This document shows, in pieces, positions 9,385 through 64,000 of a stretch of 64,000 nt of DNA. The stretch's first letter is position 1; each line of letters begins with the position of its first letter. Origin of the DNA: Aquamicrobium sp. (GTDB lineage: Bacteria; Pseudomonadota; Alphaproteobacteria; Rhizobiales; Rhizobiaceae); assembly GCA_019739225.1 (NCBI GenBank), contig JAHHDT010000005.1, positions 434,001-498,000 on the forward strand, given 5' to 3'. Under the pieces are notes generated by a model. That model did no database searches. It was not told where the DNA came from and saw nothing but the letters and a program-made list of their open reading frames with translations. Both the position numbers and the translations under genes were made by a program.

Positions 9385-9753
9385 CTACTTCGGCCGGTTG
9401 GTCGTCTGGCCGTACTGGTTGGCGCCGGGCGTGCCCGGCATTAGGCACAAGCCTACGAAGACGATGAAGTTGAGCAACGGCACGAACAGCAGCGCGGCGA
9501 ACAGGCCGGGCTTGTCGATGTCGTGCACGCGCTTGGCCCCCAGCGCTGCCTGCGCCCACAGCGAGGCGATCATGACCGCGCTGAGCAGCGTCTCCCAGAA
9601 CGCGCCGCCGCTGCCGCTCTCCTGCGCCAGCGTCAGCCGGTAGACCATGAAGACGACGAGGATCATCATCAGCAGGCCGGCCAGAAAATAGGCGGCGCGG
9701 CTGATCCGGCCGGAAAAGCCGAAGAAGAGCCATAACATCTGGTTCGCAGGCAC
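9385..9753 (-). CDS. DUF805 family membrane protein
   Basis: 122 aa. FFGFSGRISRAAYFLAGLLM at the N-terminus and KRVHDIDKPGLFAALLFVPL near the middle are hallmarks of DUF805 inner-membrane proteins (YhaH/YhaI type), with about four hydrophobic segments. The start is probably the GTG at 9753, which has a GGAG 8 bp upstream; the ATG at 9738 has none. Function unknown. It follows dapD by about 60 bp on the same strand. Confidence 0.85.
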   Translation of the reverse strand: MPANQMLWLFFGFSGRISRAAYFLAGLLMMILVVFMVYRLTLAQESGSGGAFWETLLSAVMIASLWAQAALGAKRVHDIDKPGLFAALLFVPLLNFIVFVGLCLMPGTPGANQYGQTTNRPK

Positions 9754-46946: not shown

Positions 46947-46954
46947 CGGGGGCC

Positions 46955-47479: not shown

Positions 47480-47528
47480 CTCCAGAGTTGAAGCCGGGAC
47501 AGCACTGGCTGTCCGGCGGAAAAGAACG

Positions 47529-47553
47529 AGCCCGCGCCTGAGGCGCGGGCTCT
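47529..47553 (-). terminator. Attenuator-like hairpin between dctP-like and dctQ-like genes
   Basis: GAGCCCGCGCC-TGA-GGCGCGGGCTC forms a perfect 11-bp stem, 8 bp after the solute-binding-protein stop. On the minus strand GTTCTTTT follows, so partial termination is plausible. Such an element would give more binding protein than permease. Confidence 0.75.
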
Positions 47554-47560
47554 ATGATGA

Positions 47561-48595: not shown

Positions 48596-48743
48596 TTCCT
48601 CAACTCCGCTGTCGGTGGTGGAAGTCACAGTGACCCCGACGCGGCGGGCGCAGGCCCGACGACGCTCAAGTTCACCCTCAATGTAAATGCTTTTGGCAGT
48701 TTCCCTGGGGGCTTGTAGCCTGCCCCTCTTAGCTGTCTACCAT

Positions 48744-48906: not shown

Positions 48907-49515
48907 ATGAACGTCCGACCCGCCGAAGTCATTGAGCCCGATGTCGAAACGGCCGTGCCCGGCCTGGACATCGGCGCGAGGCTCGCCCAGCTTCGCCAGC
49001 AGCAGGGCTGGACGCTGCAGCAGGCCAGCAAGCGGACCGGCGTCTCCGCATCGGCGCTGTCGAAGATCGAGCGCAACGAACTGTCGCCGACGATCTCGAC
49101 GCTCCAGCGCGTTGCCCATGGCTACGAACTCGACGTGGTCGCGTTGCTGAATGACCGGGAAGCCTCGCGCAGTCTGCCGGGCCGCCGCAGCGTGACGCGG
49201 GCGGACGAGGGACGTCCCTACCAGTCGAACAGTTGCGCCAACACGGTGCTCTGCGCCGACCTGCTCGACAAGCGCATGACGCCGATCCGCACGCGGGTGA
49301 CGGCGCGCTCGCCGGAGGAATATCGCTCCTGGCCGGTGAGCGATGCCGAGATTTTCGTGACCGTCATCAAGGGGACGATGGTCGTGCACAGCCAGATCTA
49401 CGAACCCCTGATCCTCAACGCGGGCGACAGCCTCTATTACGATGCCGGATCGCCGCACATCTGGACCTCGCAGGGGCCGGAGGATGCGGAAGTGATCTGG
49501 GTGATCTCCTCCTAG
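48907..49515 (+). CDS. XRE family regulator with C-terminal cupin domain
   Basis: 202 aa. An N-terminal helix-turn-helix (about residues 24-77: RLAQLRQQQGWTLQQASKRT ... SALSKIERNELSPTISTLQR) is followed by a small beta-barrel cupin (about 130-200: GTMVVHSQIYEPLILNAGDS, YYDAGSPHIWTS). Such XRE-cupin proteins usually repress neighbouring catabolic genes and respond to a small ligand. It is divergent from the TRAP operon and 9 bp upstream of the hydroxyacid oxidase gene, so it probably governs both. Confidence 0.92.
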   Translation: MNVRPAEVIEPDVETAVPGLDIGARLAQLRQQQGWTLQQASKRTGVSASALSKIERNELSPTISTLQRVAHGYELDVVALLNDREASRSLPGRRSVTRADEGRPYQSNSCANTVLCADLLDKRMTPIRTRVTARSPEEYRSWPVSDAEIFVTVIKGTMVVHSQIYEPLILNAGDSLYYDAGSPHIWTSQGPEDAEVIWVISS

Positions 49516-49524
49516 AGACGCTCC

Positions 49525-50682
49525 ATGCTGTTGAATGCAGCCGACTACCGCGAAAAGGCGCGGCGCAGACTGCCGCGCGGCCTGTTCGAATATATTGACC
49601 GGGGCACCGAGGACGAACAGGCCCTGGCGCGCCTGCGCGGCTCGTTGGATGCGGTGACGCTGCGGCCTTCGGTGCTGTCGGGGGATGCAAGTCGCGATGC
49701 CGGCACGACGCTTTTCGGCAAAGGATTGCCGACGCCTTTGGTCGTGGCGCCGACCGCGTTGGCGGGCCTCGTCGCACACGACGGCGAACTGAAACTGGCG
49801 CGTGCCGCGGCAGCGCTCGGCATCCCATTTTGCGTCTCGACGCAGTCCGTGACGACCATAGAGGACATCCGCCGCGCAGCACCCGATGCGGCTTTGTGGT
49901 TCCAGCTCTATGTCTGGCGTGACCGTTCGCTGACCGCCGAACTTCTGAAGCGGGTGCGGGCGAGCGATTGCGAATGCCTGGTCGTGACGGCCGACACGCA
50001 GATGTCGCCCAACCGCGAATACAACCAGCGCAACGCCTTCGGCATCCCCTTCAAACCGACCGTGCGCAACGTCGCCGACATGGCGGTTCATCCCCGTTGG
50101 CTGCTGGGCGTCATGCTGCGTTATATGTTTGCCGGCGGCGTACCGACCTACGGTCATTATCCGCCGGAGTTCCGCAGCGCCATCACCCGCGCCAGTGTTG
50201 CGGACGCCGTGCGGCTGAGGACGGATCTTTCCTGGGACGACGTGAAACGGCTGCGCGACGAGTGGCCGGGCAAGCTGATCGTCAAGGGCGTGCTGTCGGT
50301 CGAGGATGCCGAACTGGCCGCCGGGGTCGGCGCTGATGGCATCGTCGTTTCCGCGCATGGCGGGCGCAATCTCGATTGCCTGCCATCTCCCGCAAGCTGC
50401 CTGCCGGCGATCGCGGAAGCGGTGGGCGACAGCATGGCCGTACTGGCCGACAGCGGTGTGCGGCGCGGCACCGACGCACTGAAATATCTTGCCATGGGCG
50501 CGCAGGGCGTGATGCTGGGCCGGTTACCGCTCTGGGGGCTCGCGGCCGGCGGCGAGGAGGGCGCGCGCGCCATCCTGTCGATGATGCTGCGCGAGATGGA
50601 CACCGCCATGGGCTTTCTCGGTGTGCCTGACATCGCCGCGCTACGATCGCCCGCGCGCTGGAGCGTCGAAGCGGTGAACTGA
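49525..50682 (+). CDS. FMN-dependent alpha-hydroxy-acid oxidase/dehydrogenase
   Basis: 385 aa. The glycolate oxidase/L-lactate dehydrogenase TIM barrel: FEYIDRGTEDE near the N-terminus, PLVVAPTALAGL, FQLYVWRDR, VTADTQMSPNRE, KLIVKGVLSVEDAELA, the catalytic His in SAHGGRNLD (about residue 281) with Arg following, and LADSGVRRGTDALKYLAMGA with LGRLPLWGL for the FMN phosphate. It oxidises an L-2-hydroxyacid to the 2-ketoacid. Together with the D-type GlcD-like enzyme nearby it would cover both stereoisomers of a TRAP-imported hydroxyacid (inference). Confidence 0.92.
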   Translation: MLLNAADYREKARRRLPRGLFEYIDRGTEDEQALARLRGSLDAVTLRPSVLSGDASRDAGTTLFGKGLPTPLVVAPTALAGLVAHDGELKLARAAAALGIPFCVSTQSVTTIEDIRRAAPDAALWFQLYVWRDRSLTAELLKRVRASDCECLVVTADTQMSPNREYNQRNAFGIPFKPTVRNVADMAVHPRWLLGVMLRYMFAGGVPTYGHYPPEFRSAITRASVADAVRLRTDLSWDDVKRLRDEWPGKLIVKGVLSVEDAELAAGVGADGIVVSAHGGRNLDCLPSPASCLPAIAEAVGDSMAVLADSGVRRGTDALKYLAMGAQGVMLGRLPLWGLAAGGEEGARAILSMMLREMDTAMGFLGVPDIAALRSPARWSVEAVN

Positions 50683-50870: not shown

Positions 50871-50886
50871 CTAACCGTTTGGTTAG
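50871..50886. promoter_or_regulatory. TetR-type operator palindrome at the TTT operon
   Basis: CTAACC-GTTT-GGTTAG has perfect 6-bp arms and lies 15 bp upstream of the solute-binding-protein start, across the expected transcription start. Many TetR regulators bind such AACC/GGTT palindromes. The tetR gene at 58.4 kb in the same operon is the natural candidate (inference). Confidence 0.7.
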
Positions 50887-50900
50887 TTAGGGGAACGAGA

Positions 50901-51908
50901 ATGGGCAATAAGGCATACGCATTCATCGCCGCGACAGCGGCCTTTCTGGTCGCCGGTCCCGCCGTTGCGCAGGACTGGAAGCCCAGCGAACCGGTCACGA
51001 TCATCGTGCCGTGGTCTGCGGGCGGATCGACCGATACCGTCACCCGCGTCGTCGCCGGCGAGCTTTCCGAAGCGCTCGGCCAGAACGTCGTGATCCTCAA
51101 CCAGCCCGGCGCGTCCGGCTCGACGGGCACCCGCTCCGTGTGGGAGGCGCCGCATGACGGCATGACCATGGCCGCCGGCGCGGTGGCCGACCTCGGCGCC
51201 TATCCGGTGCTGGGCACGCTCGACGCGAAGCTCGAGGACTGGCGCCTCTATCTGCATGTCGCCAATCCGGGCCTCATCTCCGTTCGCACCGACAGCGAAT
51301 GGGAAGATTTCGGCGATCTTCTCGAGGCGCTGAAAACGTCCGAGGAAGCCATCACCGTCTCGTCCGGCGGACTTTCCTCCGCAACCGCCATCAGCATGCA
51401 GACGCTGGAGAAGGCGGCCGACATCAACTATCGCCAGATCGTCTATGAGGGCGGCAACCCGGCCGTCATCTCGACCGTTTCCGGCGAGACGCAGTTCACC
51501 GCCGCGACCGCAACGGAGCAGGTCGACATGATCCGCGCCGGGCGGCTGCGCCCGCTGGCCGTGATTGCCGACAAGCCGCTCGAGCTCGAGGGCTTCGGCA
51601 CGGTGCCGCCGGTGACCGAATGGCTGCCGGAGGTTGCCAGCGCGCCGAACTATTTCGGCGTCTTCGTTCCCGCCGATGCGCCGCAGGAGGTGCTCGACAC
51701 GATGGACAAGATCTGGGCCGAGAAGATCGCGGGCTCCGAGGTCATGAAGGCGCACGCAGCCGAGCGCGGCGCGCTGTTCAACGCCACCTATGGCGAGGAA
51801 GCGGTCAAGGCCGCAATGCCGTATCTTTCGATCAATGCCTGGCAGCAGTTCGAAAGCGGCGCGGCGCCGAACGACCCGTCGGAGTTCGGCATCCCGAAGC
51901 CCGAATAA
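50901..51908 (+). CDS. TTT transporter solute-binding protein (TctC/Bug-like)
   Basis: 335 aa with a signal peptide ending near AVAQ. The Bug-family blocks are PVTIIVPWSAGGSTDTVTRV (ligand-contacting loop) and LNQPGASGSTGTRSVWEAPH, and GVFVPADAPQEVLDTM near the C-terminus. It captures carboxylates (tricarboxylates, aromatic or sugar acids) for the TctAB permease. AGGGGA lies about 7 bp before the ATG. It is first in a nine-gene operon. Confidence 0.93.
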   Translation: MGNKAYAFIAATAAFLVAGPAVAQDWKPSEPVTIIVPWSAGGSTDTVTRVVAGELSEALGQNVVILNQPGASGSTGTRSVWEAPHDGMTMAAGAVADLGAYPVLGTLDAKLEDWRLYLHVANPGLISVRTDSEWEDFGDLLEALKTSEEAITVSSGGLSSATAISMQTLEKAADINYRQIVYEGGNPAVISTVSGETQFTAATATEQVDMIRAGRLRPLAVIADKPLELEGFGTVPPVTEWLPEVASAPNYFGVFVPADAPQEVLDTMDKIWAEKIAGSEVMKAHAAERGALFNATYGEEAVKAAMPYLSINAWQQFESGAAPNDPSEFGIPKPE

Positions 51909-51993
51909 GCATCCAACAGACGCGATCCGGCACGTCCTGCGCGCCGGATCGCGATAGTCTTTGCCCGCGGTATACGGCCAGGCGATCGGTTTC

Positions 51994-53517
51994 ATGGACG
52001 GTCTGAATCAATTTCTCGGCGCGGTCGTCGCGATCGGCATGTCCGCGGACATGCTGGTCGTCGTCTGGGCGACGCTGCTCGGCATCGTGGTCGGCATGAT
52101 ACCGGGCCTGACGGCGACACTGGGCGTGGCGCTCGTCACCACGCTGACCTTCACCATGGAGCAGAACACCGCGATCCTGGTGCTGATCTGCGTCTATATC
52201 GGCGCGATCTATGGTGGTGGCAGGACAGCCATCCTGCTCAACATCCCCGGAACGCCGGCCAATGCGGCCTCGGCGCTGGACGGGTTTCCGCTGGCCAAGC
52301 AGGGCCGGGCGGGCGAGGCCATGGCGGTGGCGACGTCCGGCTCCTTCCTGGGCACGATGGTGGGCATGGTCGGCCTCGCGCTGATCGCGCCATGGCTGGC
52401 CGAATTCGCGCTCGACTTCACCTCCTTCGAATTCTTCTGGCTTGCCGTCTTCGGCATCGTGCTTTGCGGCCAGCTCACATCGATGGACGATCCGCTCAAG
52501 GGCTGGATCGCCGGCTTCCTCGGCCTGCTGGTCGCGATGGTGGGGCAGGAAAGCCTGCACGCCTATTCGCGTTATTCCTACGGTATCCTCGATCTTGAGG
52601 CGGGCTTCGGTCTGCTGCCCGTCCTCGTCGGTGCGTTCGGCTGCGCGGAAGTCTTCGTCGTGATGCGGCAGGAGGCGACGACACTGGTCGCCTCGCAGGT
52701 CGGCGGCGTGCTGCGCTCCGCCCTGAAATCGTTCAGATATGTGCGGACCTGGCTGCGATCCGGCGTGATCGGCACCTTCATGGGCGTCGTGCCCGGCGTC
52801 GGCGAGGATATGGGCGCGTGGGTCTCTTACGCAGCCGCCAAGCGCGCTTCGAAGACGCCCGACGACTTCGGCAAGGGCTCGACGGACGGCCTGCTGGCGG
52901 CCGAGACGGGCAACAACGCCGCCGTGCCCGGCGCGCTGATCCCGGTGCTCACCCTGGCGATCCCCGGTTCCGCGCCGGCCGCCGTGCTGCTGGCCGCGAT
53001 GGTGATCCATGGTCTTCGCCCCGGTCCGCTGATCATGATTACGCAGGCCGATTTCTTCTATTCGGTCGTCGCCATGGTCTTCTGGGCGAGCGTGGCAATG
53101 CTGGTGCTCGGGCTTCTCCTGACGCGCCCGCTGCTTCTCATCCTCAAGGTGCGGCGCGAATGGCTGATGGGCATCATCTTCGTCCTGTGCGCGGTGGGCT
53201 CCTTCGCGATTGCCGGGCGCCTGTTCGACGTCTGGGTGATGATCGGCTTCGGCCTCATCGGCTTCCTGATGCGCGAAACCGGTTTCCCGATCGCGCCGAT
53301 GATCCTCGGCGTGGTGCTGGGGCCGATCCTCGACAACAACTTCCGGCGCAGCCTGTCGCTTACACAGGGCGACCCGATACCCTTCGTCACGCGGCCGATC
53401 AGCGCCGTCATCGCACTCCTCGTGCTGCTGATGATCGTGCTGGCGCTGCCGCCGGTGCGGCGCATGCTGGGCCAGGCGAAAGTGCGGCTGCTCGAAGGGA
53501 GACGCGCCGATGGCTGA
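51994..53517 (+). CDS. TTT transporter large permease (TctA-like)
   Basis: 507 aa from the ATG at 51994; a TTG at 51961 is in frame. About 12 membrane segments. Signature blocks: GMIPGLTATLGVALVTTLTF, GGGRTAILLNIPGTPANAAS, VVPGVGEDMGAWVSYAAAKR and GALIPVLTLAIPGSAPAAVL. It is the main transmembrane subunit. No clear ribosome binding site is seen. It overlaps the next gene by 8 bp. Confidence 0.93.
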   Translation: MDGLNQFLGAVVAIGMSADMLVVVWATLLGIVVGMIPGLTATLGVALVTTLTFTMEQNTAILVLICVYIGAIYGGGRTAILLNIPGTPANAASALDGFPLAKQGRAGEAMAVATSGSFLGTMVGMVGLALIAPWLAEFALDFTSFEFFWLAVFGIVLCGQLTSMDDPLKGWIAGFLGLLVAMVGQESLHAYSRYSYGILDLEAGFGLLPVLVGAFGCAEVFVVMRQEATTLVASQVGGVLRSALKSFRYVRTWLRSGVIGTFMGVVPGVGEDMGAWVSYAAAKRASKTPDDFGKGSTDGLLAAETGNNAAVPGALIPVLTLAIPGSAPAAVLLAAMVIHGLRPGPLIMITQADFFYSVVAMVFWASVAMLVLGLLLTRPLLLILKVRREWLMGIIFVLCAVGSFAIAGRLFDVWVMIGFGLIGFLMRETGFPIAPMILGVVLGPILDNNFRRSLSLTQGDPIPFVTRPISAVIALLVLLMIVLALPPVRRMLGQAKVRLLEGRRADG

Positions 53518-54550
53518 CGCGCGGCGCTCCGTCCTGATCTGCGGCTTCGGGGCCTTCGGCGCACTGCATGCGAAGGCGTGGCGCGTCTGCGACCCCTCGG
53601 TTCGGCTCATGGTAAGCGACCCGTCGGAGGCGGCGCGTGGTGAGGCGATTGCAAGCGGCGTCGAACCGGCAGCAGTTGCCGAGGACCCTGCGACGCTGAT
53701 GCCGCACGCCGACATCGTCGATGTCGTCGCGCCGCCGGTTCATCATCTTCCGCTGGCGCTGCAGGCTCTGTCGCTCGGCAAGCCGGTATTGCTGGAAAAG
53801 CCCGCCGTGCGCTCGCTTGGCGAGGCGCAGGCACTCGTGCAGGCGGCCGGAACCGTGCCGGTTCAGGTCGGCCTCGTGCTGCGGTGCCACCCGCTCGTGC
53901 GCCGCGCACGCGACCTGCTCGCGGCAGGCGCGATCGGCAAGCTGCTGTTGATGGAGGGAGACTTCTCCGGCTGGAAGCGGATGCGGGCGGATTCATCACT
54001 CATCGAAAACGACGGCGTGCATTTCATCGACCTGATGCGCCATTTCGCTGGCGCTCCGGTCAGTGCGGTTGACGCTGCTTTCGCTCGGCACCTCGATCCG
54101 GCAGTTGTCGACGATATCCGCATCGATCTCGCATTCGGCAACGGCATCGAAGGCCGCCTGAGGCTCGGCGTGCTGGCCGGTGGGCTCGCCGAGGACGGCT
54201 TCGTGCCCGGCGCGATGACCAGCAAGAGCCTGCGGCTGGTGGGATCGACGGGCAATCTGGTGCTCGACTTCAACGCCAACCGGCTGTTTCACGGCACCGT
54301 CGAATATCGCCGCTCGCCCGGCGGCTTCGACGTCATGCCGCAAGGCCTGACCAGCGAGGCAGCGATCGGGGTGACGCCGGTATCCCTGCTTGCCCGCAGT
54401 TTCGTGATCTTCGGCACGGCACTCGATGGCGGCGGACCGGTGATGTGCGACCCGCATGAAGGCGCGCTGGAGATGGCGCGCGTGATCGAGGCGCTGGAGG
54501 CCTGCGCGAGCCGCACGCGTCGGCTTGAACCGGTAGGAGATGCTGCATGA
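53510..54550 (+). CDS. Gfo/Idh/MocA family oxidoreductase
   Basis: 346 aa. N-terminal Rossmann fold for NAD(P) (VLICGFGAFGALHAKAWRVC), the DIVDVVAPPVHHLPLALQAL strand-helix and the catalytic-Lys motif LLEKPAVRSLGEAQAL (Glu-Lys-Pro). The C-terminal domain has ENDGVHFIDLMRHFAGAPVS with the conserved His. These enzymes oxidise or reduce sugars and sugar acids. It is inserted between tctA- and tctB-like genes, which ties it tightly to the imported compound. Confidence 0.9.
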   Translation: MADARRSVLICGFGAFGALHAKAWRVCDPSVRLMVSDPSEAARGEAIASGVEPAAVAEDPATLMPHADIVDVVAPPVHHLPLALQALSLGKPVLLEKPAVRSLGEAQALVQAAGTVPVQVGLVLRCHPLVRRARDLLAAGAIGKLLLMEGDFSGWKRMRADSSLIENDGVHFIDLMRHFAGAPVSAVDAAFARHLDPAVVDDIRIDLAFGNGIEGRLRLGVLAGGLAEDGFVPGAMTSKSLRLVGSTGNLVLDFNANRLFHGTVEYRRSPGGFDVMPQGLTSEAAIGVTPVSLLARSFVIFGTALDGGGPVMCDPHEGALEMARVIEALEACASRTRRLEPVGDAA

Positions 54551-55053
54551 AGGTGGAGAAGGTCATGCGCACCGACCTGATATCGGGGCTGGCCGTTTCG
54601 GTGGTCGGCATTGCGGGTTTCGTCGAAGCCTTGCGGATGCCGCGTTTCGAGGCGCGCAACGCCGACCCGTTCACCGTACCCGGCCTGACGCCCGGCATCG
54701 TCAGCTTCGTCATCGCGGTGCTGGGGCTGATGCTCGTGCTGCGTGCGCTCGCGGGCCGTGGCGCATCCGAAACGTTGCCGATTGGCGTATGGCCCGAAGG
54801 CAGCGTCAAGCGCACCCTGTTCACGATAGCAACGGTGGTCATCTACGGCGGTGCGCTGTTCGGCCGGATGCCTTTCATTGCCGCGACGACGCTGTTCGTC
54901 TTCGTGTTTACCGTGGGGGCCGAGTGGCTGAACCCGCAACGCCGGATGGGCTTGCCGGTGCTTGCTGGATGGGCATTGGCACTTTCGCTGGTCGCCGCCT
55001 TCGTCATCCATTACGTCTTCACCACCGTCTTTCATGTCAGGTTGCCGGGATGA
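54547..55053 (+). CDS. TTT transporter small permease (TctB-like)
   Basis: 168 aa with four membrane segments and the TctB layout (RTDLISGLAVSVVGIAGFVE at the N-terminus and FVFVFTVGAEWLN in the third segment). It overlaps both the oxidoreductase stop (ATGA) and the following isomerase start (ATGA), so translation is coupled on both sides. It completes the TctCAB set. Confidence 0.88.
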   Translation: MKVEKVMRTDLISGLAVSVVGIAGFVEALRMPRFEARNADPFTVPGLTPGIVSFVIAVLGLMLVLRALAGRGASETLPIGVWPEGSVKRTLFTIATVVIYGGALFGRMPFIAATTLFVFVFTVGAEWLNPQRRMGLPVLAGWALALSLVAAFVIHYVFTTVFHVRLPG

Positions 55054-55898
55054 GGCGGTTCCGGATCTCGCTCTGTAACGAGGTGCTCGGCAAGCTGCCT
55101 TTCGTGCGCCAATGCGCGCTGGCGGCCGCACTGGGCTATGACGGGCTGGAGCTCGCGCCGTTCACGCTCGACCCGGAGCCGGCGTCCCTGGGTCTCGCGA
55201 AGCGTCGAGCTCTGCGGCGCACGGCCGAGCGCGAAGGCATCGCCATCACCGGATTGCACTGGCTTCTGACAGTGCCGAAGGGCCTGTCGATCACGACGGG
55301 GGACCCGGCCCTGCGGGCGCGCACGGTCGCTCATATCGAGGCGATGATCGAGCTCTGCGCCGATCTCGGCGGCGAGGTTCTCGTTCACGGCTCGCCGGAC
55401 CAGCGGCGGGTTGCCGATGCGAGCGGCCCGCAGGCGGCGCGCGACAACGCGACCGTGGTGCTGGCCCGCGCGGCCGAAGCCGCACAGCGGGCCGGTGTCG
55501 TCTATTGCCTGGAACCGCTGTCGCCGGCGCTGACCGATTTCGCCACCAATATCGACGAGGCGGCGGCGATCGTGCGCGCGGTCGGGTCGCCGCATCTCGC
55601 GACGATGATCGACACGTCGGCCGCTTGGGCCGGCGAAACGGAACAACCCGACGCGCTGATCCGGCGGCATCTGCCGACCGGCCTGCTGCGGCACGTGCAC
55701 GTCAACGACACCAACCGCCGCGCGCCGGGGCAGGGGGAGCACGGCTTCCTGTCGGTGATGCGCGCGCTGGTCGACGGCGGCTACAAGGGCGTCGTCGGGG
55801 TCGAGCCCTTTGATTATCACCCGGACGGAGCAACGGCTGCCGCAATGGCGCTGGGCTATCTCAACGGGCTTCTGGAACAGACGGAGAGGACGCCATGA
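55050..55898 (+). CDS. Sugar-phosphate isomerase/epimerase-like TIM-barrel protein
   Basis: 282 aa from the ATG at 55050 (a longer in-frame ORF is only a shadow of tctB). It is an AP-endonuclease-2/xylose isomerase-type barrel: FAVAL-type start RRFRISLCNEVLG, LGYDGLELAPF, GEVLVHGSP, YCLEPLSPALTDF with the metal-binding Glu, MIDTSAAW, HVHVNDTNRRAPGQGEH, and VVGVEPFDYHPDG with the last Glu. Such proteins isomerise or epimerise keto-sugars and sugar acids using divalent metal. The substrate is unknown. Confidence 0.88.
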   Translation: MRRFRISLCNEVLGKLPFVRQCALAAALGYDGLELAPFTLDPEPASLGLAKRRALRRTAEREGIAITGLHWLLTVPKGLSITTGDPALRARTVAHIEAMIELCADLGGEVLVHGSPDQRRVADASGPQAARDNATVVLARAAEAAQRAGVVYCLEPLSPALTDFATNIDEAAAIVRAVGSPHLATMIDTSAAWAGETEQPDALIRRHLPTGLLRHVHVNDTNRRAPGQGEHGFLSVMRALVDGGYKGVVGVEPFDYHPDGATAAAMALGYLNGLLEQTERTP

Positions 55899-57358
55899 AC
55901 GCGCCAGCAATCAAGGTCGGCGAGGCGCGGTTCGGGATCGACAATGCATTTGCCCGCATGCCCTTCCGCTTCGGCGTGGTCACCATGGAGGCGGCGGCAG
56001 CACTCACGCTCGAACTGGAACTGAGCATCGACGGCCGCCGCGCCGTGGGCTACGCCTCTGATCTGCTTGCCTACAAATGGTTCGACAAGCGGCCGGAAAA
56101 GACGCCGGCCGACAATGTCGCCGACCTGCTATGGGTGGTGCAGGAAGCAGCGAAGATCGCGCGCGACCTGCCTTCGGGCACGCTGTTCGAGATCTGGCGG
56201 GCACTGGACGGCGAGGTCGAGCGGCGCGCACTCGACGCCGGCTTCAATCGTCTTGGCGCTTCGTTCGGCGTGTCGATGATCGAACGCGCGCTGATCGACG
56301 GCATCGCGCGATCGCTCGGGCTGACCTTCCACGAGTGCATCCGCGGCGACGTCCTCGGGCTGCGCCCGGCGCAGGTCTTCCCCGAGCTGGACGGCATGTC
56401 GCCTGCCGATGTGTTGCCGGCCACGCCGCTGAAGCGGCTTGGCCTGCGCCACACGATCGGGCTGGTCGATCCGATTGATGCCGGTGACCTCGATCCGGCT
56501 CAGCGCGTCGGCGACGGCCTGCCGGAGACGCTGGCCGACTATCTGAACCACGATGGCGTTCGCTATCTCAAGATCAAGGTGGGCGGCAACGCCGATGCCG
56601 ACATCGCGCGTCTCGAGAAGATCGCCGGGCTGCTGAGGCAGGTCGGCGGGCCGTTCTCGATCACGCTCGACGGCAATGAGCAGTACAAGCGCCTCGACGA
56701 TTTCGCTGGCCTCATGGAGGCGATCCGCTCTCGGTCGGCGCTGGACGAGATCTACCGTTCGATCCTTTTCGTCGAACAGCCGCTGGAGCGCTCAGTCGCG
56801 CTCGACGGGCCGCTGGGGGCGGACGCGCTGGCGGCGATCGGCAAGCCGCTGCTGATCGACGAGGCCGACGGCTGGACAGGCGCATTCCGCGATGCCATCG
56901 CGCTGGGCTATCGCGGCGTCAGCCACAAGAACTGCAAGGGCGTCGTCCGGTCGCTGCTCAACGCGATGCTGGTCGCGCATCACAACGCCGCGTCAGGCGA
57001 GCCGGGCGGCTATTTCCAGTCGGCCGAGGACCTGACATGCCTGCCGGCCGTGTCTTTGCAGGCCGATCTCGCCGTGGTCGCCTCGCTCGGCATCACGCAT
57101 GTGGAGCGCAACGGGCACCACTATTTCCACGGGCTCGACCATCTGCCGCGCGCCGAGGCGGATGCGGCGCTGAACGCGCATCCCGACCTCTACGAGGAAA
57201 CGCGCCAGGGCGCGCAACTCGCAGTGCGCGATGGCCATCTCGACATCGCGTCGCTGCAGGTGCCCGGCCTCGGCTGCGCGCTCACCCCCGATCTCGGCAA
57301 GCGCATCGCTCCGGCTGACTGGACGTTCGCCATGCTTAACGCAAGACCGGCAGACTGA
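55895..57358 (+). CDS. Enolase-superfamily enzyme of unknown reaction
   Basis: 487 aa, longer than typical mandelate racemase members (about 370-400). The barrel motifs are visible: YLKIKVGG (Lys acid/base), ITLDGNEQY (metal Asp), ILFVEQPLER (metal Glu), LLIDEADGW (metal Glu or Asp) and GVSHKNCKGVVRSL (second Lys). The extended N-terminus (about 200 residues) and a His-rich C-terminal part (NGHHYFHGLD) are unusual. It is likely to abstract the alpha-proton of a carboxylate, perhaps dehydrating the sugar acid made upstream. It overlaps the isomerase gene (ATGA). Confidence 0.82.
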   Translation: MNAPAIKVGEARFGIDNAFARMPFRFGVVTMEAAAALTLELELSIDGRRAVGYASDLLAYKWFDKRPEKTPADNVADLLWVVQEAAKIARDLPSGTLFEIWRALDGEVERRALDAGFNRLGASFGVSMIERALIDGIARSLGLTFHECIRGDVLGLRPAQVFPELDGMSPADVLPATPLKRLGLRHTIGLVDPIDAGDLDPAQRVGDGLPETLADYLNHDGVRYLKIKVGGNADADIARLEKIAGLLRQVGGPFSITLDGNEQYKRLDDFAGLMEAIRSRSALDEIYRSILFVEQPLERSVALDGPLGADALAAIGKPLLIDEADGWTGAFRDAIALGYRGVSHKNCKGVVRSLLNAMLVAHHNAASGEPGGYFQSAEDLTCLPAVSLQADLAVVASLGITHVERNGHHYFHGLDHLPRAEADAALNAHPDLYEETRQGAQLAVRDGHLDIASLQVPGLGCALTPDLGKRIAPADWTFAMLNARPAD

Positions 57359-57376
57359 GCCGGCGAGGAGACTGAA

Positions 57377-58405
57377 ATGGACCAGACCATCCCGTCCGAA
57401 ATCCGCACCGAGGAAGAGTTGGAGGAGCTGCTGTCGCGGCCGAGCGAGCAGCTCGTCGCGTCGCTGCGCAGCATCGACGGAGACATCACCATCCTTGGCG
57501 TCGGCGGCAAGATGGGGCCGACGCTGGCACGCATGGCCAAGCGCGCCGCGCCCGAAAAGCGCGTCATCGGCGTCGCCCGCTTCTCCGAGGCGGGCCTGAA
57601 GGAGAAGCTGCAGGGCTGGGACATCGAAACGGTCGAGTGCGACCTGCTCGACCGCAAGGCGGTCGACGGCCTCGAACGCACGGAGAATGTCGTCTTCATG
57701 GCCGGCCGAAAGTTCGGGTCCGAGGGCAACGAGTCGCTGACCTGGGCGATGAACGTGCATGTGCCGGCGATCGTCGCCGAAGCTTTCGTGCAGTCGCGCA
57801 TCGCCGTGTTCTCGACCGCCTGCGTCTATCCCTTCGTCGACATAGCGGGGCAGGGCGCACGCGAGGACCTGCCGCTCGATCCACCCGGCGAATATGCCAA
57901 TTCCTGCGTCGGGCGCGAACGCATGTTCGAGCATTTCTCGCGCGTCTACGGCGCGCGGGTCTCGCTGATCCGTCTCTCCTACGCGATCGACATGCGCTAC
58001 GGTGTGCTGCACGACGTTGCGCGCGCGGTGCTCGCCGGCGAACCGGTGCAGGTGAGCAGCGGCCATTGCAACGTGATCTGGCAGGGTGATGCCAACGACA
58101 TCGCGCTCCAGTCGCTCGCCCATGCCGGAACGCCGCCTTTCGTGCTCAACTTGTCGGGTCCGGAGCTTGTCAGCGTGCGCCGGCTTGCGCAGAAGTTCGG
58201 GGAGCGCTTCGGGCGTACGCCGGTCTTCGAAGGCGAGGAGCAGGGCAAGGCGTGGATCGTGGACACGAGCCTGCAGCAGTCGCTGCACGGTTACCCCTCG
58301 GTTCCGCTGCCCCGGCTGATCGACTGGACCGCAAAATGGATGCAAGGGGGCGGCAAGTCTCTCGACAAGCCGACGCATTTCGAGGTTCGAGATGGCAAAT
58401 ACTGA
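57377..58405 (+). CDS. NAD-dependent epimerase/dehydratase-like SDR lacking the YxxxK lysine
   Basis: 342 aa with a Rossmann fold (ITILGVGGKMGPTLARMAK) after a 40-residue N-terminal leader rich in Glu. Extended-SDR landmarks are VFMAGRKFGSEG, STACVYPF (catalytic Ser region) and PPGEYANSCVGRERMFEHFS. The last is the place of the YxxxK motif, but it reads YANSC, so the usual catalytic Lys is replaced by Cys. It may still bind NAD and act through another residue, or be a non-classical member. Ribosome binding site GGAGA; 18 bp after the enolase-like gene. Confidence 0.83.
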   Translation: MDQTIPSEIRTEEELEELLSRPSEQLVASLRSIDGDITILGVGGKMGPTLARMAKRAAPEKRVIGVARFSEAGLKEKLQGWDIETVECDLLDRKAVDGLERTENVVFMAGRKFGSEGNESLTWAMNVHVPAIVAEAFVQSRIAVFSTACVYPFVDIAGQGAREDLPLDPPGEYANSCVGRERMFEHFSRVYGARVSLIRLSYAIDMRYGVLHDVARAVLAGEPVQVSSGHCNVIWQGDANDIALQSLAHAGTPPFVLNLSGPELVSVRRLAQKFGERFGRTPVFEGEEQGKAWIVDTSLQQSLHGYPSVPLPRLIDWTAKWMQGGGKSLDKPTHFEVRDGKY

Positions 58406-59114
58406 TGCGGACGGGACGTCCGGCAAGGACGTCCCGACGGGCAAGCCGGTGAAGGATGCGCCCCGCCAGACGCGCGACGCGGTGGCAACGCGCGCGCGCA
58501 TCCTCACGGCCGCGGTGAAGGAATTCGCCAAGAAGGGCCTGACAGGCACCCGCATCGACCAGATCGCCACGCGCGCCCGCTGCAACAAGGCGCTGATCTA
58601 TCATTATTTCGGCAGCAAGGAGGCGCTGTTCAGCGCCGTGCTGGAAAAGACCTACGAGAACATCAGGCTGGCGGAGCGCCAGCTCGACCTGACGCACAAG
58701 CCGCCGGTGGAGGCGATGCGCGAGCTGATCGGCTTCTCGTTCGACTATGTGAGCCAGCACCCCGAATTCATCAAGCTCATCAATGACGAGAACCTGCATG
58801 GCGGCGTGCATGTCGCGCATTCGGCCAAGGCGCGTGACCTGAACAGCCCGCTCGTCGCGCTGATCGAGGAGATACTGAAGCGGGGGGAACGCGAAGGCGT
58901 CTTTCGCGCCGGCGTCGACCCGGTGCAGCTCTACATCTCGATCGCCAGCATCTGCTATTTCTTCATCGCCAATCGCCCGACCCTTTCCGCGATCTTCGGC
59001 CTGCCGAAGACGCCGGAAGTGCTGGCGGATCGTCGCCGGCACGTGATCGACGTCATCCTCGGCTATCTGCGCCCCGTCGACGGGACGCCTTCCACATCAA
59101 GAGCAAATCCATGA
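58392..59114 (+). CDS. TetR family transcriptional regulator
   Basis: 240 aa. A disordered Lys/Asp-rich N-terminus of about 30 residues precedes the helix-turn-helix (RARILTAAVKEFAKKGLTGT, RIDQIATRARCNKALIYHYF, GSKEALFSAVLE), and the C-terminal all-alpha ligand domain (about 85-220). It overlaps the SDR gene by 14 bp and the next gene by 4 bp, so it is part of the operon and probably regulates it through the palindrome at 50871-50886. Confidence 0.92.
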   Translation: MANTDADGTSGKDVPTGKPVKDAPRQTRDAVATRARILTAAVKEFAKKGLTGTRIDQIATRARCNKALIYHYFGSKEALFSAVLEKTYENIRLAERQLDLTHKPPVEAMRELIGFSFDYVSQHPEFIKLINDENLHGGVHVAHSAKARDLNSPLVALIEEILKRGEREGVFRAGVDPVQLYISIASICYFFIANRPTLSAIFGLPKTPEVLADRRRHVIDVILGYLRPVDGTPSTSRANP

Positions 59115-60160
59115 AGATCAACGACATCCCCGCCACCCCGCTCGCAGCGCTCCGCAAGGGCGGCGTCATCCCCGCGCATCCGCTGGCGCTCGACGCCTCG
59201 CGCAAGCTGGACGAGCGCCATCAGCGCGCGCTGTCGCGTTATTATCTCGATGCGGGCGCGATCGGAATGGCGGTCGGTGTTCACACAACGCAGTTCGAAA
59301 TCCGCGACCATGGCCTTCTGGAGCCGGTGCTTTCGCTGGCGGCGGAGGAAGCCGCGCGCCATGCCAGCCAGCCCTTCATGGTGGCCGGCGCGATCGGGCG
59401 CACGGAGCAGGCGGTGCGCGAGGCCGAGCTGGCGCGCGCCAAGGGCTATCATGCGGTGCTGCTCGGGCTCGCGGCCATGCGGGACGCCAGCGAGGACGAG
59501 CTGGTCGCGCACTGCCGCGCCGTCGCCGAGGTGATGCCGGTGATCGGCTTCTACCTGCAGACGGCCGTCGGCGGGCAGCCGCTGCGCTACGAGTTCTGGC
59601 GGCGCTTTGCCGAGATCGAGAACGTTGTGGCCATCAAGATGGCTCCCTTCAACCGCTACCGCACGCTCGACGTGGTGCGGGCGGTGATCGACGCCGGCAC
59701 CGAGGACCGCATCACGCTCTACACCGGCAATGACGACCATATCGTCGCCGACCTGATGACCAAGTTTACGTTCAAGCGCGACGGCAAGCCGGTCAGCGTG
59801 CGCATCAAGGGCGGCCTGCTCGGCCACTGGGCCGTGTGGACCAGAAGCGCCGTCGAGTTGCTGGCCGACATTCACGAACGCGCCGACGAGCGGTCAACCG
59901 CCGAATGGCTGGAGCTGGATGCGCGCACCACGGATGCCAACGGCGTGCTGTTCGACGTGCGCAACGACTTCGCCGGCTGCATCGCCGCCATCCACGAGGT
60001 GCTGCGCCGGCAGGGGTTGCTGCAGGGCATCTGGTGCCTGAACCCGGACGAGACGATGGGGTCGGGGCAGGAAGAGGAACTTGCGCGTATCATGCGCGAC
60101 TATCCCGAACTCACCGACGATGCGTTCGTGCGCGAAAACCTGGATCGCTGGCTCGCCTGA
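59111..60160 (+). CDS. DapA-superfamily enzyme, long form
   Basis: 349 aa, about 50 longer than DapA. The TIM-barrel pattern shows VIGFYLQTAVGG, the Schiff-base Lys in VVAIKMAPFNRYRT (about residue 178) and LYTGNDDHIV. The GTGE-type motif is replaced here by VGVHTTQFEIRDHGL. A lyase of a 2-keto-3-deoxy acid would fit as the final step of the pathway encoded upstream; the exact reaction is not determined. It is the last gene of the operon (coupled to tetR by ATGA). Confidence 0.8.
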   Translation: MKINDIPATPLAALRKGGVIPAHPLALDASRKLDERHQRALSRYYLDAGAIGMAVGVHTTQFEIRDHGLLEPVLSLAAEEAARHASQPFMVAGAIGRTEQAVREAELARAKGYHAVLLGLAAMRDASEDELVAHCRAVAEVMPVIGFYLQTAVGGQPLRYEFWRRFAEIENVVAIKMAPFNRYRTLDVVRAVIDAGTEDRITLYTGNDDHIVADLMTKFTFKRDGKPVSVRIKGGLLGHWAVWTRSAVELLADIHERADERSTAEWLELDARTTDANGVLFDVRNDFAGCIAAIHEVLRRQGLLQGIWCLNPDETMGSGQEEELARIMRDYPELTDDAFVRENLDRWLA

Positions 60161-60178: not shown

Positions 60179-60201
60179 GGAAGCCGCTCAGAGCGGCTTC
60201 C
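60179..60201. terminator. Hairpin between convergent operons
   Basis: GGAAGCCGCT-CAG-AGCGGCTTCC, a perfect 10-bp stem with a 3-nt loop, lies between the end of the TTT operon and the end of livM, and covers the livM stop codon. No T-run follows on either strand, so it may stop transcription weakly from both sides. Confidence 0.65.
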
Positions 60202-61171
60202 GCGTCCATTTCGAGATGACGCCGACGATGCCTTCACGGAAGAGCATCACCGAGACCACGAAGATCAGGCCCTGAATGATGGTCACCCAGGCGCCGAAGG
60301 TCGCCAGGTAGTTCTGCATGGTGACGATCACCGCGGCGCCCACGATCGGCCCGAACACGGTGCCCATGCCGCCGAGCAGCGTCATCAACACGACTTCGCC
60401 GGACATCGTCCAGTAGACGTCGGTTAGCGAGGCGAGCTGGAAGACGATGGCCTTGGTGGCGCCGGCGAGGCCGGCCAGCGTCGCAGACAGCACGAAGACG
60501 GCGAGCTTGTAGCGGTTGACGCGGTAGCCGAGCGAGATCGCGCGGGGCTCGTTCTCGCGGATCGCTTTCAGCACCTGCCCGAACGGCGAGTGGATGATGC
60601 GGTAGATGAGCAGGATCCCCGCGAAGGCGATCGCCAGTACCAGGAAATACAGCGATTCCTGCGAGCGCAGATCGATGAGGCCGAAGAGATGGCCGCGCGG
60701 CACCGCCTGAATGCCGTCCTCGCCGCCGGTGAACTCGGCCTGCAGCGAGAAGAAGTAGACCATCTGCGCGAAAGCGAGCGTGATCATCGCGAAATAGATG
60801 CCCTGCCTGCGGATCGCCAGCGAACCGATGAGGAAGCCGAGCACCCCGGCAACAAGCGTGCCGCAGATGATGGCAAGTTCTGGCGTCAGCCCCCAGACCT
60901 TGGCGGCGTGGGCGCAGACATAACTCGCCATCCCGAAATAGGCGGCATGGCCGAAGGACAGCAGCCCGCCATAGCCGAGCAGCAGGTTGAAGGCGCAGGC
61001 AAAGAGCGCGAAGCACAGGATCTTCATGATGAAGATCGGGTAGAAGAAGAACGGCGCGGCGATGAGCAGCACCAGCAGGCCGGCGAAGATCGCGATGTGG
61101 TGGGCAGGCATGCCGCCCGCCGTCTGCTGGGCGACGACCGGGCCGCCGGTTGCTTCCGTGGTGGCGGTCAT
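60188..61171 (-). CDS. Branched-chain amino acid-type ABC permease (LivM-like)
   Basis: 327 aa from Met at 61171. A hydrophobic protein with about nine segments. LivM hallmarks: LLGYGGLLSFGHAAYFGMAS (about residues 62-81), GQVLKAIRENEPRAISLGYR (about 197-216) and MTLLGGMGTVFGPIVGAAVI near the C-terminus. It overlaps the livH-like stop by one base. The ligand of this system is not evident from the permease. Confidence 0.93.
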   Translation of the reverse strand: MTATTEATGGPVVAQQTAGGMPAHHIAIFAGLLVLLIAAPFFFYPIFIMKILCFALFACAFNLLLGYGGLLSFGHAAYFGMASYVCAHAAKVWGLTPELAIICGTLVAGVLGFLIGSLAIRRQGIYFAMITLAFAQMVYFFSLQAEFTGGEDGIQAVPRGHLFGLIDLRSQESLYFLVLAIAFAGILLIYRIIHSPFGQVLKAIRENEPRAISLGYRVNRYKLAVFVLSATLAGLAGATKAIVFQLASLTDVYWTMSGEVVLMTLLGGMGTVFGPIVGAAVIVTMQNYLATFGAWVTIIQGLIFVVSVMLFREGIVGVISKWTRKPL

Positions 61172-62058
61172 CAGGCAGTCCTCCCGAAGAGCCCTGCCGG
61201 CTTGACCAGCAGCACCAGGGCCATGATGACGAAAATGACCACCGCCGAGCCTTCGGGGTAGAAGACGCGCGTCAGGCCTTCGATGAGGCCGAGCCCGAAG
61301 CCGGTGACGATCGAGCCGAGGATCGAGCCCATGCCCCCGATGACGACCACGGCGAAGACGACGATGATGAGATTCTCGCCCATCACCGGGTTGATCGCGT
61401 AGATCGGCGCGGCAAGCACGCCGGCAAAGCCGGCAAGGGCCACGCCGAAGCCGTAGGTCAGCGTGATCATGAGCGGCACGTTCACGCCAAAAGCGCCGAC
61501 GAGCGTCGGGTTCTCCGTCGCTGCCCGCAGATAGGCGCCGAGCTTGGTCTTCTCGATCACGAACCATGTCGCCAGGCACACGACCGCCGAGGCGATGATG
61601 ACCCATGCGCGCGAATTGGGCAGGTACATGAAGCCGAGATTATGTCCGCCCGAGAGCAGTGGCGGCGCCTGGTAGGGCAGGCCGGATACGCCGAAAATCT
61701 GCTTGAAGATGCCGGTCGTGATGAGCGCCAGGCCAAATGTGAGGAGCAGGCCATAAAGATGGTCGAGGTGATATAGTCGCCGGATGAACAGGCGTTCCAG
61801 GATGACGCCGGTAATGCCGACCGCGACCGGCGCGATCAGCAGCGACCACCAGTAGTTCACGCCGAGATAGTTGAGCAGCATCCAGGTGACGAACGCACCC
61901 AGCATGTACTGCGCGCCGTGGGTGAAGTTGATGATGTTCAGCAAGCCGAAAATCACCGCCAGCCCGAGAGAGAGGATGGCGTAGAACGAGCCGTTGATCA
62001 GCCCGAGCAAGAGCTGGCCGAAAAGCGCCTGAGGCGGAATGCCGAGGAGTTCGAACAT
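61171..62058 (-). CDS. Branched-chain amino acid-type ABC permease (LivH-like)
   Basis: 295 aa, about eight hydrophobic segments. Signature blocks: GLINGSFYAILSLGLAVIFG at the N-terminus, GLLNIINFTHGAQYMLGAFV, and VFAVVVIGGMGSILGSIVTG near the C-terminus. It partners LivM. A 66-bp gap with a strong hairpin separates it from the binding-protein gene upstream. Confidence 0.94.
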   Translation of the reverse strand: MFELLGIPPQALFGQLLLGLINGSFYAILSLGLAVIFGLLNIINFTHGAQYMLGAFVTWMLLNYLGVNYWWSLLIAPVAVGITGVILERLFIRRLYHLDHLYGLLLTFGLALITTGIFKQIFGVSGLPYQAPPLLSGGHNLGFMYLPNSRAWVIIASAVVCLATWFVIEKTKLGAYLRAATENPTLVGAFGVNVPLMITLTYGFGVALAGFAGVLAAPIYAINPVMGENLIIVVFAVVVIGGMGSILGSIVTGFGLGLIEGLTRVFYPEGSAVVIFVIMALVLLVKPAGLFGRTA

Positions 62059-62081
62059 CTGGATACCTGCTGCCGTATGAG

Positions 62082-62111
62082 AAGGGAGGCGCGCGTGTGC
62101 GCGCCTCCCTT
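62082..62111 (-). terminator. Intra-operon hairpin after the livK-like gene
   Basis: AAGGGAGGCGCGC-GTGT-GCGCGCCTCCCTT is a perfect 13-bp stem in the 66-bp gap between the binding-protein stop and the livH-like start. On the minus strand it ends in two Ts only, so it probably acts as a partial terminator or as a 3' stabiliser of the binding-protein mRNA. Confidence 0.75.
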
Positions 62112-62124
62112 GCTAGCGGTTACG

Positions 62125-63315
62125 TCACTTGACGAATTCGCAGCCACCTTCCTCGAGCGGACGGAACGCCTTGTCGGCCGGGATCGTCGCAACGGTCTCG
62201 TAAAGGTCCCATTCGCCTTCCGACTTGTCCGGCGTCTTCACGCGGAACAGGTAGGAGTCGTGGATCTTGCGCCCGTCCTCGCGAACGACACCCTGGCCGA
62301 ACAGCGGATCGTCGGTCGGCATCTCCTTCATCTTGGCCATGACGGCCTCGGTTTCCTTGCTGCCGACCGCCTCGACTGCCTTCAGGTAGTGCAGGACGGC
62401 GCTGTAGACGCCGGCCTGGATCATCGACGGCTTGTTGCCGGTCTGCTCCTCGAAGCGGGCCGACCACTCGCGGGTGCCGTCATTCATGTCCCAATAGAAG
62501 CTTTCCGTCAGCACGAGGCCCTGGGCCACGTCGAGACCCAGCGAATGCACGTCGTTGATGAACACGAGCAGGCCGGCGATCGCCTGACCGGCCTGTGTGA
62601 TGCCGAACTCGGCGGCCTGCTTCATCGAGTTGACGGTATCGCCGCCGGCATTGGCGAGGCCGATCACCTGTGCGCCGGACGCCTGCGCCTGCAGCAGGAA
62701 CGACGAGAAGTCGGTGCCGGGGAACGGAGTCTTGACCGAGCCCACCACTTCGCCGCCGGCTTCCTTGACGACTGCCGAGGTGTCGCGCTCGAGTGCGTGG
62801 CCGAAGGCATAGTCCGCGGTCAGGAAGAACCAGGTCTTGCCGCCGTTCTCCACCATGGCGCCGCCGGTGCCATGCGCGAGCTGCCAGGTGTCGTAGGTCC
62901 AGTGGATGGTGTTGGGCGAGCAGGCCGCACCCGTCAGATCGGACGTTGCAGCACCCGAATTGAGGAAGATCTTGTTCTTCTCGCGGGTGATCTCGTTGAT
63001 GGCGAGCGCGACCGACGAGGTCGGAACGTCGGCGATCACGTCGACGCCTTCGGTGTCGTACCACTGGCGTGCGATGTTGGAGCCGACATCCGGCTTGTTC
63101 TGGTGGTCGGCGGACACGATCTCGACGTTGATGTCTTTGGACGCGGCGTCGAAGTCTTCCACTGCCATCCGCGCGGCGATCACCGAGCCTTCGCCACCGA
63201 TGTCGGCATAGATGCCGGAGCGGTCGTTCATCACGCCAATCTTGACGTCGGTAGCGTAGGCCGTTCCCGACATCAGCACGCCTGCCAGTGCGGCAAGGAC
63301 AAATCTGCTCTTCAT
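62125..63315 (-). CDS. Branched-chain amino acid-type ABC solute-binding protein
   Basis: 396 aa with a signal peptide ending near AYA. A type I periplasmic-binding protein (family 6): DVKIGVMNDRSGIYADIGGE at the mature N-terminus, VVGSVKTPFPGTDFSSFLLQ, and PTDDPLFGQGVVREDGRKIH near the C-terminus. Binding proteins of this subgroup often take up amides, aromatic or short organic acids rather than leucine. It is next to livF-, livH- and livM-like genes. Confidence 0.92.
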   Translation of the reverse strand: MKSRFVLAALAGVLMSGTAYATDVKIGVMNDRSGIYADIGGEGSVIAARMAVEDFDAASKDINVEIVSADHQNKPDVGSNIARQWYDTEGVDVIADVPTSSVALAINEITREKNKIFLNSGAATSDLTGAACSPNTIHWTYDTWQLAHGTGGAMVENGGKTWFFLTADYAFGHALERDTSAVVKEAGGEVVGSVKTPFPGTDFSSFLLQAQASGAQVIGLANAGGDTVNSMKQAAEFGITQAGQAIAGLLVFINDVHSLGLDVAQGLVLTESFYWDMNDGTREWSARFEEQTGNKPSMIQAGVYSAVLHYLKAVEAVGSKETEAVMAKMKEMPTDDPLFGQGVVREDGRKIHDSYLFRVKTPDKSEGEWDLYETVATIPADKAFRPLEEGGCEFVK

Positions 63316-63358
63316 TATCTTCTCCTCCGATTGCGGCGCGTTTCGCGCCTTCTCTCCC

Positions 63359-64000
<642 letters not shown>

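Follow-up and report, generated by a model that had tools for sequence, protein, structure and literature searches.

A nine-gene operon of Aquamicrobium sp. that probably imports and breaks down an acid, perhaps sugar-derived

Introduction

A stretch of 64,000 nucleotides from Aquamicrobium sp. (assembly GCA_019739225.1, contig JAHHDT010000005.1, positions 434,001 to 498,000; the whole stretch is called the window here) carries at 50901-60160 nine tightly packed genes, all on the plus strand. They encode, in order, TctC, TctA, a Gfo/Idh/MocA oxidoreductase, TctB, a TIM-barrel protein, an enolase-superfamily enzyme, a protein of the short-chain dehydrogenase/reductase (SDR) fold, a TetR-family regulator and a DapA-like protein, where TctC, TctA and TctB are the subunits of a tripartite tricarboxylate transporter (TTT). 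The question raised by this locus is whether the nine genes belong together and, if so, what they act on. The nine linked genes probably import and break down an acid, perhaps a sugar-derived one.

Results

Conservation of the operon and of the SDR-DapA pair

The identical nine-gene set, in the same order and on the same strand, was found on plasmid pOM-1 of Nitratireductor sp. OM-1, whose DapA-like and enolase-like proteins share 85.6% and 67.5% identity, respectively, with those of the window. Among 385 genomes of the class, the DapA-like family was present in 35 (the window's own included), all at E values up to 2.3e-128; the next match was at 1.8e-9, and any match at 1e-3 was obtained in 72 genomes. 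The SDR family (E up to 1e-40) was present in exactly the same 35 genomes, which represent 19 families. The two genes lie within 10 kb of each other in 30 of the 35 genomes and are separated in five, either far apart on one contig (G028, G182) or on different contigs (G044, G087, G231). The naive hypergeometric value for this co-occurrence is 1.6e-50, the true figure being less extreme because the genomes are related. For the enolase family, a full-length match was observed in 29 of the 385 genomes, 24 of them within the 35 genomes with both SDR and DapA-like genes, and only weak matches were observed in eight more; in 19 of those 24 genomes the enolase gene is located within 12 kb of the dapA or sdr gene.

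A search of a species-level genome collection with the DapA-like profile confirmed at least 592 relatives, and the loci of the best 80 of these (L045-L124), 15 of which come from Bradyrhizobium or from organisms named only to its family, were compared by tblastn. The resulting counts are lower bounds because many loci stop at contig ends, and the simple gene caller used for clustering the genes of the loci misses some genes. The SDR gene was found in 70 of the 80 loci, followed by GNAT (48), TetR (47), ABC ATPase (47), ABC permease (42), NMT1 binding protein (39), enolase (30), TctC (27, where matches at 26-28% identity in L071, L081 and L088 may be unrelated), TIM barrel (26), TctA (19), TctB (16), a second Gfo (14), DUF993 (14), a second TIM barrel (13), amidase (11) and the window-type Gfo (2). 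Most of these 70 SDR genes are close to dapA (63 with a start at most 3.5 kb away), and all but one (69) are encoded on its strand. The SDR-DapA pair is the constant core and the other genes come and go, the variable parts around it being TTT or NMT1-type ABC transporters, the TIM-enolase pair, GNAT, amidases and a Gfo-DUF993-TIM cassette. Outside the Proteobacteria, an SDR/epimerase-type gene adjoining the DapA-like gene was observed on plasmids of Rhodococcus, Aquisphaera, Paenibacillus, Streptomyces, Mesobacillus, Glaciihabitans and Prescottella.

Extra enzyme genes abutting core genes were seen in one or two loci each, namely M20 (L089, L094), CN_hydrolase (L093, L101), hydantoinase B (L111), aldehyde dehydrogenase (L076) and a DHO_dh-like gene (L051), most extras acting on C-N bonds. 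An M20 gene is also located near the SDR-DapA pair in L044. The aldehyde dehydrogenase was the only one among the 18 operon-embedded extra genes searched in relatives.

A putative TetR operator shared by transporter and enzyme genes

The promoter of tctC contains the palindrome TAACC-GTTT-GGTTA, located 29 bp (start to start) 5' of tctC, and the identical palindrome at the same 29-bp distance was found in OM-1. It was read from the window promoter, and the 80 loci in which it was then counted do not include the window; gene starts for TctC, TctA, NMT1, ABC permease and Gfo were approximated there by the start of the tblastn match. With spacers of 2-6 bp allowed, the 80 loci yielded ten perfect copies, and the spacer was 4 bp in every one. 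All ten, together with 24 of the 30 one-mismatch copies, lie upstream of module genes, in 67,461 of 1,360,321 bp (5%). When 30 permutations of the half-site were ranked by upstream matches, the real TAACC came first (34) and CAACT second (29), with at most 2 for the others.

A TetR branch that has diverged is taken to use the CAACT copies as its operator, because most of them sit where tetR, ABC permease or SDR genes begin in NMT1-type loci; many of them come from closely related Bradyrhizobium, and many are found 4 bases downstream of the called tetR start, where the start codon was judged to be miscalled. By branch, TAACC is observed in TTT-type and many DapA promoters and CAACT in NMT1/Bradyrhizobium-type promoters, a distribution that would fit co-evolution of TetR and its site. 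The merged form YAACY-N4-RGTTR gave 79 matches, 69 of them within the 98,273 bp around module starts (from 180 bp before to 60 bp after), compared with 50 and 31 for two letter-sharing permutations and at most 4 for the other controls, a result that is descriptive because the form was picked after the control had been seen. This form is present in 42 of the 80 loci and in 38 of the 47 TetR-bearing loci.

Of 20 genomes, eight have a single copy of the extended 16-mer GTAACC-N4-GGTTAC and 12 have none, and its reversed control occurs in three of the 20. By their coordinates, seven of the eight sites are loci already identified, and the eighth is in Roseomonas sp. HF4. Eight operator-like sites away from known loci were chosen by eye and then inspected, and module genes were found at three of them. 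In Devosia rhodophyticola, the site separates a TetR homologue from a Gfo-DUF993-TIM cassette; the DapA operon is on the same contig at a distance of about 1.2 Mb. In a Pseudorhodoplanes metagenome-assembled genome, it precedes tctC-tctB-tctA-TIM, and in Roseomonas sp. HF4 it lies between a GNAT-matching open reading frame (ORF) and tctC-tctB-tctA, in both cases on a contig other than that of the DapA locus. The remaining five sites (L155, L156, L158, L159, L161) have no module genes at the site and were treated as chance; at L155, an NMT1/ABC-permease pair is located about 2.5 kb away. In the Devosia cassette (L154, 4968-8177), the Gfo protein matches PDB 3oqb ("oxidoreductase") at 4.1e-185 and the DUF993 protein matches 4dnh ("uncharacterized protein") at 9.1e-196.

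By this comparison, palindromic sites are present at promoters of module genes, as a TetR repressor would have them, and the palindrome is a putative TetR operator common to transporter and enzyme genes across genomes. The best NCBIfam match of the window TetR is RutR (1.4e-17), but the score of 64.3 bits compares with a cutoff of 368, and the putative operator with its TAACC or CAACT half-sites and 4-bp centre sets it apart from RutR.

Folds and catalytic residues of the enzymes

Residues were counted in alignments of the window protein with 28 of 29 usable enolase matches, 39 of 69 SDR matches and 27 of 78 DapA matches, and in plasmid sets of the DapA-like protein and the SDR (n = 11 each). 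In the DapA-like protein, the Schiff-base lysine K176 and Y148 were present in all 28 sequences, as in the N-acetylneuraminate lyase/dihydrodipicolinate synthase (DHDPS) family (PF00701) that it resembles, and N-acetylneuraminate lyase was the best PDB profile match of the family (4.3e-10). It nevertheless forms a separate subfamily, with 54-85% identity inside it, 27% for the next plasmid match and the gap to E 1.8e-9 among genomes given above. In the plasmid set, K176 was present in 11/11 and Y148 in 9/11 proteins. The tyrosine is replaced by Ala in a Rhodococcus qingshengii plasmid protein (62.7% identity) and by Ser in a Glaciihabitans plasmid protein (56.5%), both of which keep the Schiff-base lysine. 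Dihydrodipicolinate synthesis was rejected as a function, there being no match to a DapA equivalog and only matches to KdgD-type models at 3.5e-05 and 8e-05, below cutoff.

The SDR resembles extended SDRs such as TerB and UDP-glucose 4-epimerase in its fold (model with a predicted local distance difference test score, pLDDT, of 94.0; best Foldseek E 1.1e-16), and its profile reaches TerB at 1.7e-12. The tyrosine of the YxxxK pair of classical and extended SDRs is kept, Y173, S176 and K112 being present in 40/40 sequences, whereas the lysine of that pair is found in none of the 40, position 177 being Cys in 39 and Ala in one (Cys in nine and Val in two of the 11 plasmid proteins). Since the YxxxK lysine is absent, the protein may not be an ordinary dehydrogenase; that the invariant K112, located elsewhere, stands in for it is a conjecture.

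The profile of 20 enolase-like homologues matched muconate lactonizing enzyme (MLE) and related enzymes in the PDB (best 9.9e-05) and also reached dipeptide epimerases, and 12 of the 20 members, the window member not among them, matched MR_MLE_C at E up to 0.1 (best 5.4e-09). The best Foldseek matches of the model (pLDDT 92.4) belong to the enolase superfamily, the top one being an N-acylamino acid racemase, and the capping domain and barrel of the superfamily are present. K226, K228, D259, E294, D322, E323 and K345 were conserved in 29/29 sequences, D259, E294 and E323 being the three acidic metal ligands, which the superfamily has on successive strands. K226, K228 and K345 lie at strand ends in the model, and the alignment with MLE spans the KxK but ends before the strand-6 lysine. 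Such a lysine pair is known in cycloisomerases, epimerases and racemases. Because these residues (KxK 226/228 and K345) resemble those of muconate cycloisomerase, dipeptide epimerase and N-acylamino acid racemase, epimerisation appears as possible as dehydration. With this branch the window enolase shares the fold and the KxK, D, E and (D)E aligned with MLE, but its identity is at most 18% among the 50 solved structures listed, it is 487 aa long, and it has no Pfam match.

In Rhizobium johnstonii (pRL10, 3338-9392 of locus L032), an enolase of 40% identity stands with KduI/IolB, GH39, another TIM barrel and a D-2-hydroxyacid dehydrogenase in a different carbohydrate operon. This locus informs on the enolase only, since its TIM barrel is not recognisably of the window family (E 0.054). 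For the window TIM barrel, the closest relatives with a name are IolO, a 5-keto-L-gluconate epimerase (NCBIfam 6.2e-25, below cutoff), and psicose/tagatose 3-epimerases (PDB 7x7w at 3.1e-15).

Gene layout and surroundings

The features of the operon are shown in Table 1. A previous sequence-only reading had described nine overlapping or closely spaced plus-strand genes of these families, and both the coordinates and the OM-1 synteny bear this out. Seven of its family calls agree with Pfam (the DHDPS match being weak) and the two others, enolase-like and SDR, with homologue profiles and models, the two window proteins having no Pfam match by themselves. All three TTT subunits match their Pfam families above cutoff within one operon, and none of the nine proteins reached an NCBIfam cutoff. 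Scans for tRNA genes and Rfam families gave nothing relevant.

Table 1. Coordinates of the operon features in the window and the matches on which the assignments are based
Feature	Position	Strand	Match or remark
Putative TetR operator TAACCGTTTGGTTA	50872..50885		perfect 5-bp arms, 4-bp centre; end 15 bp 5' of tctC start codon
TctC, periplasmic solute-binding protein of TTT	50901..51908	+	PF03401 8e-21
TctA, large TTT membrane subunit	51994..53517	+	PF01970 1.3e-133
Gfo/Idh/MocA oxidoreductase	53510..54550	+	PF01408 4.1e-14, PF22725 2e-11
TctB, small TTT membrane subunit	54547..55053	+	PF07331 9.3e-11
AP_endonuc_2 TIM-barrel isomerase/epimerase	55050..55898	+	PF01261 5.4e-39
Enolase-superfamily enzyme, 487 aa	55895..57358	+	homologue profiles, model; K226, K228, D259, E294, E323, K345
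Extended-SDR-fold protein, YxxxC in place of YxxxK (Y173, C177)	57377..58405	+	homologue profiles, model
TetR-family regulator (TetR_N + TetR_C_29), putative repressor at 50872-50885	58392..59114	+	PF17938 8.7e-43
DapA-like Schiff-base enzyme, distinct subfamily (K176, Y148, T60)	59111..60160	+	weak DHDPS match, PF00701 3.1e-10

The tctA ORF begins at TTG 51961, and ATG 51994 was judged the likelier start, which leaves a gap of 85 bp after tctC. From tctA through the enolase gene, the successive junctions overlap by 8, 4, 4 and 4 bp; a gap of 18 bp separates the enolase and SDR genes, and the next two junctions overlap by 14 and 4 bp. The sequence-only reading had further stressed that enzymes are placed between the transporter subunits. 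This holds for the Gfo gene, which stands between tctA and tctB in the window and at the same position in OM-1, but the arrangement looks local: relatives of the window Gfo (E up to 1e-5, 40% coverage) were found in two of the 80 loci, at 33-34% identity and adjoining tctC instead, so that the gene is apparently a local or lineage-specific insertion.

Directly 5' of the operon (48907-50682), the translations indicate a cupin-type XRE regulator ORF followed by an ORF for a flavin mononucleotide-dependent alpha-hydroxy-acid dehydrogenase; this pair may or may not have the operon's substrate. Both flanks carry further transporter ORFs on the minus strand, likewise from translations, of the TRAP type upstream (45644-48628) and of the branched-chain-amino-acid ABC type downstream (60188-63982).

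Discussion

On balance, the locus is best read as an operon under TetR control for the uptake and catabolism of a small carboxylic acid; a sugar-derived acid of the aldonate or uronate type is the most likely one, and the SDR-DapA pair would be the trunk. To judge from their families, TctC would bind the acid and TctA and TctB would import it, and the Gfo and TIM-barrel enzymes may carry out its oxidation plus epimerisation or isomerisation. The MLE-like enolase would remove the alpha-proton and give an epimer or a dehydrated 2-oxo-3-deoxy acid, and the SDR without its lysine would make ready a 2-oxo acid for the DapA-like enzyme. The latter would split or dehydrate this 2-oxo acid via a Schiff base at K176, with pyruvate or another small 2-oxo acid as the most likely product released. 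TetR, bound at the palindrome 5' of tctC that was located by comparison, would repress the genes until the acid or an intermediate arrives. The order of oxidation, isomerisation, dehydration and aldol cleavage given by the sequence-only reading is not established: the enolase lysine pair is MLE-like, so that epimerisation may equally take the place of dehydration, and the SDR, without the YxxxK lysine, may be no ordinary dehydrogenase. Its label of a self-contained operon is right in that the set is tightly packed and has its own uptake system and regulator, but "self-contained" is too strong, because in three relatives the operator also precedes module cassettes away from the DapA locus.

A sugar acid as substrate is likely but unproven. 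Sugar ABC permeases together with Gfo stand beside the core in Streptomyces and Glaciihabitans, and Gfo, TIM-barrel and DUF1080 genes do so in Aquisphaera. A TTT of Vibrio sp. C42 is described as specific for uronate (alginate) oligosaccharides (PMC13390454). The window TTT has the three subunits TctC, TctA and TctB of TTT systems; it differs in the oxidoreductase gene between tctA and tctB and in having no polysaccharide lyase gene among the nine. A sugar origin is favoured because of the kin of the TIM epimerase, the sugar ABC/Gfo and Aquisphaera contexts, the Rhizobium johnstonii enolase and the Vibrio precedent.

Several observations weigh against this reading of a sugar-acid operon. None of the nine genes has an assigned substrate, product or activity, and by Pfam neither a kinase nor an aldehyde dehydrogenase is among them. 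In simple scans nothing resembling a promoter was seen upstream of the operon and nothing resembling a terminator downstream of it, the sole terminator-like match being inside tctC. Nine of the 47 TetR-bearing loci are without the degenerate operator, and the window's own genome has two perfect copies of the 14-mer against three of its reversed control. With up to 3 mismatches over 20 positions, 59 sites were found in 21 genomes compared with 145 for the control, so that loose operator matches carry no weight alone. The locus counts lean towards near, related genomes because they come from the best-scoring 80 of at least 592 with 15 of the Bradyrhizobium family, and the tyrosine of the DapA-like enzyme is lost in two actinobacterial proteins. 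Finally, GNAT (48/80 loci) and amidase (11/80) genes suggest nitrogen in some of the substrates, as do the genes for CN_hydrolase (two), M20 (two) and hydantoinase B (one) that directly adjoin the core.

This last point leads to the alternative of a nitrogen-bearing acid, that is, an amino acid or amino-sugar acid in N-acylated or amide form, whose N-acyl alpha-carbon would be epimerised by the enolase, whose acyl group would be added or removed by the GNAT and amide hydrolases of sister operons, and whose skeleton would be degraded by the SDR-DapA pair. We regard it as possible but rather doubtful, the weight given to it being due to the GNAT and amide hydrolases in sister loci, to which the NMT1-type binding proteins (39/80) and the five loci with M20, CN_hydrolase or hydantoinase B genes at the core may be added. 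The N-acylamino acid racemase as top structural match of the enolase and the reach of its profile to dipeptide epimerases are also consistent with it, but GNAT and amide hydrolase genes are both absent from the window operon, and the kin of the TIM-barrel epimerase and of Gfo, like the sugar ABC contexts, indicate carbohydrate. In the N-succinylamino acid racemase pathway, a GNAT acyltransferase and a desuccinylase stand beside the racemase. This pathway was rejected for the window operon, since neither gene is among the nine and GNAT and M20 genes are present only in some sister loci.

A non-phosphorylative route of the Weimberg or Dahms kind, in which an enolase-type dehydratase is followed by a DapA-type dehydratase or aldolase that yields 2-oxoglutarate semialdehyde, or pyruvate and an aldehyde, is unlikely. 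The families fit it in outline (enolase superfamily, DapA family and oxidoreductases), but there is no aldehyde dehydrogenase among the nine genes and only the one among the 18 extras of relatives, and the similarity of the DapA-like protein to KdgD is weak, its match at 8e-05 falling well short of the cutoff. The enolase has the MLE-type lysine pair and not the residues that we take to mark sugar-acid dehydratases, and no enolase match was found in 50 of the 80 loci, some of which stop at contig ends. The plain Weimberg route was rejected, as no 2-oxoglutarate semialdehyde dehydrogenase is among the nine genes, the rest of the genome not having been searched for it.

A chance assembly of families that are mostly common by themselves, with no single pathway, is untenable because Nitratireductor sp. 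OM-1 carries all nine genes in unchanged order and orientation; the identical distribution of the SDR and DapA families over the class genomes and the putative operator that the loci have in common also speak against it.

Within the favoured reading of an uptake-and-catabolism operon, we tentatively propose that the SDR-DapA pair could be a new two-enzyme catabolic core, in which an SDR fold without the YxxxK lysine, perhaps with K112 substituting, would supply a 2-oxo acid to a DapA subfamily that is itself new. Interchangeable uptake systems and upstream enzymes would be attached to this core in many bacteria under one family of TetR operators, giving one trunk for a group of acids without a linked pathway. 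In the titles and abstract openings of the open-access literature searched, which are weak evidence of absence, no substrate or pathway is assigned to the gene set, in line with the sequence-only reading, which had not recognised it as a described pathway; open-access searches for DUF993 and for the combined families likewise returned no paper on this set. SMc04132 is presumably a DUF993 protein. SMc04132 and SMc04133 appear in a table of a study on the regulator PhaR (PMC12542648). The folds and the general plan are familiar, but no description was found in the literature so searched of the way in which they are combined, of the core pair or of the operator common to the loci.

The DapA-like subfamily is represented by at least 592 loci of the species-level genome collection, spread over several phyla and accompanied by its SDR partner. 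This points to a widespread nutrient, for whose breakdown no description was found in the literature so searched. Relatives of 4dnh (DUF993) and 3oqb, two structures that are solved but have no protein name, fall into the same putative regulon, and the operator together with the core pair offers a substrate-independent handle for finding that nutrient.

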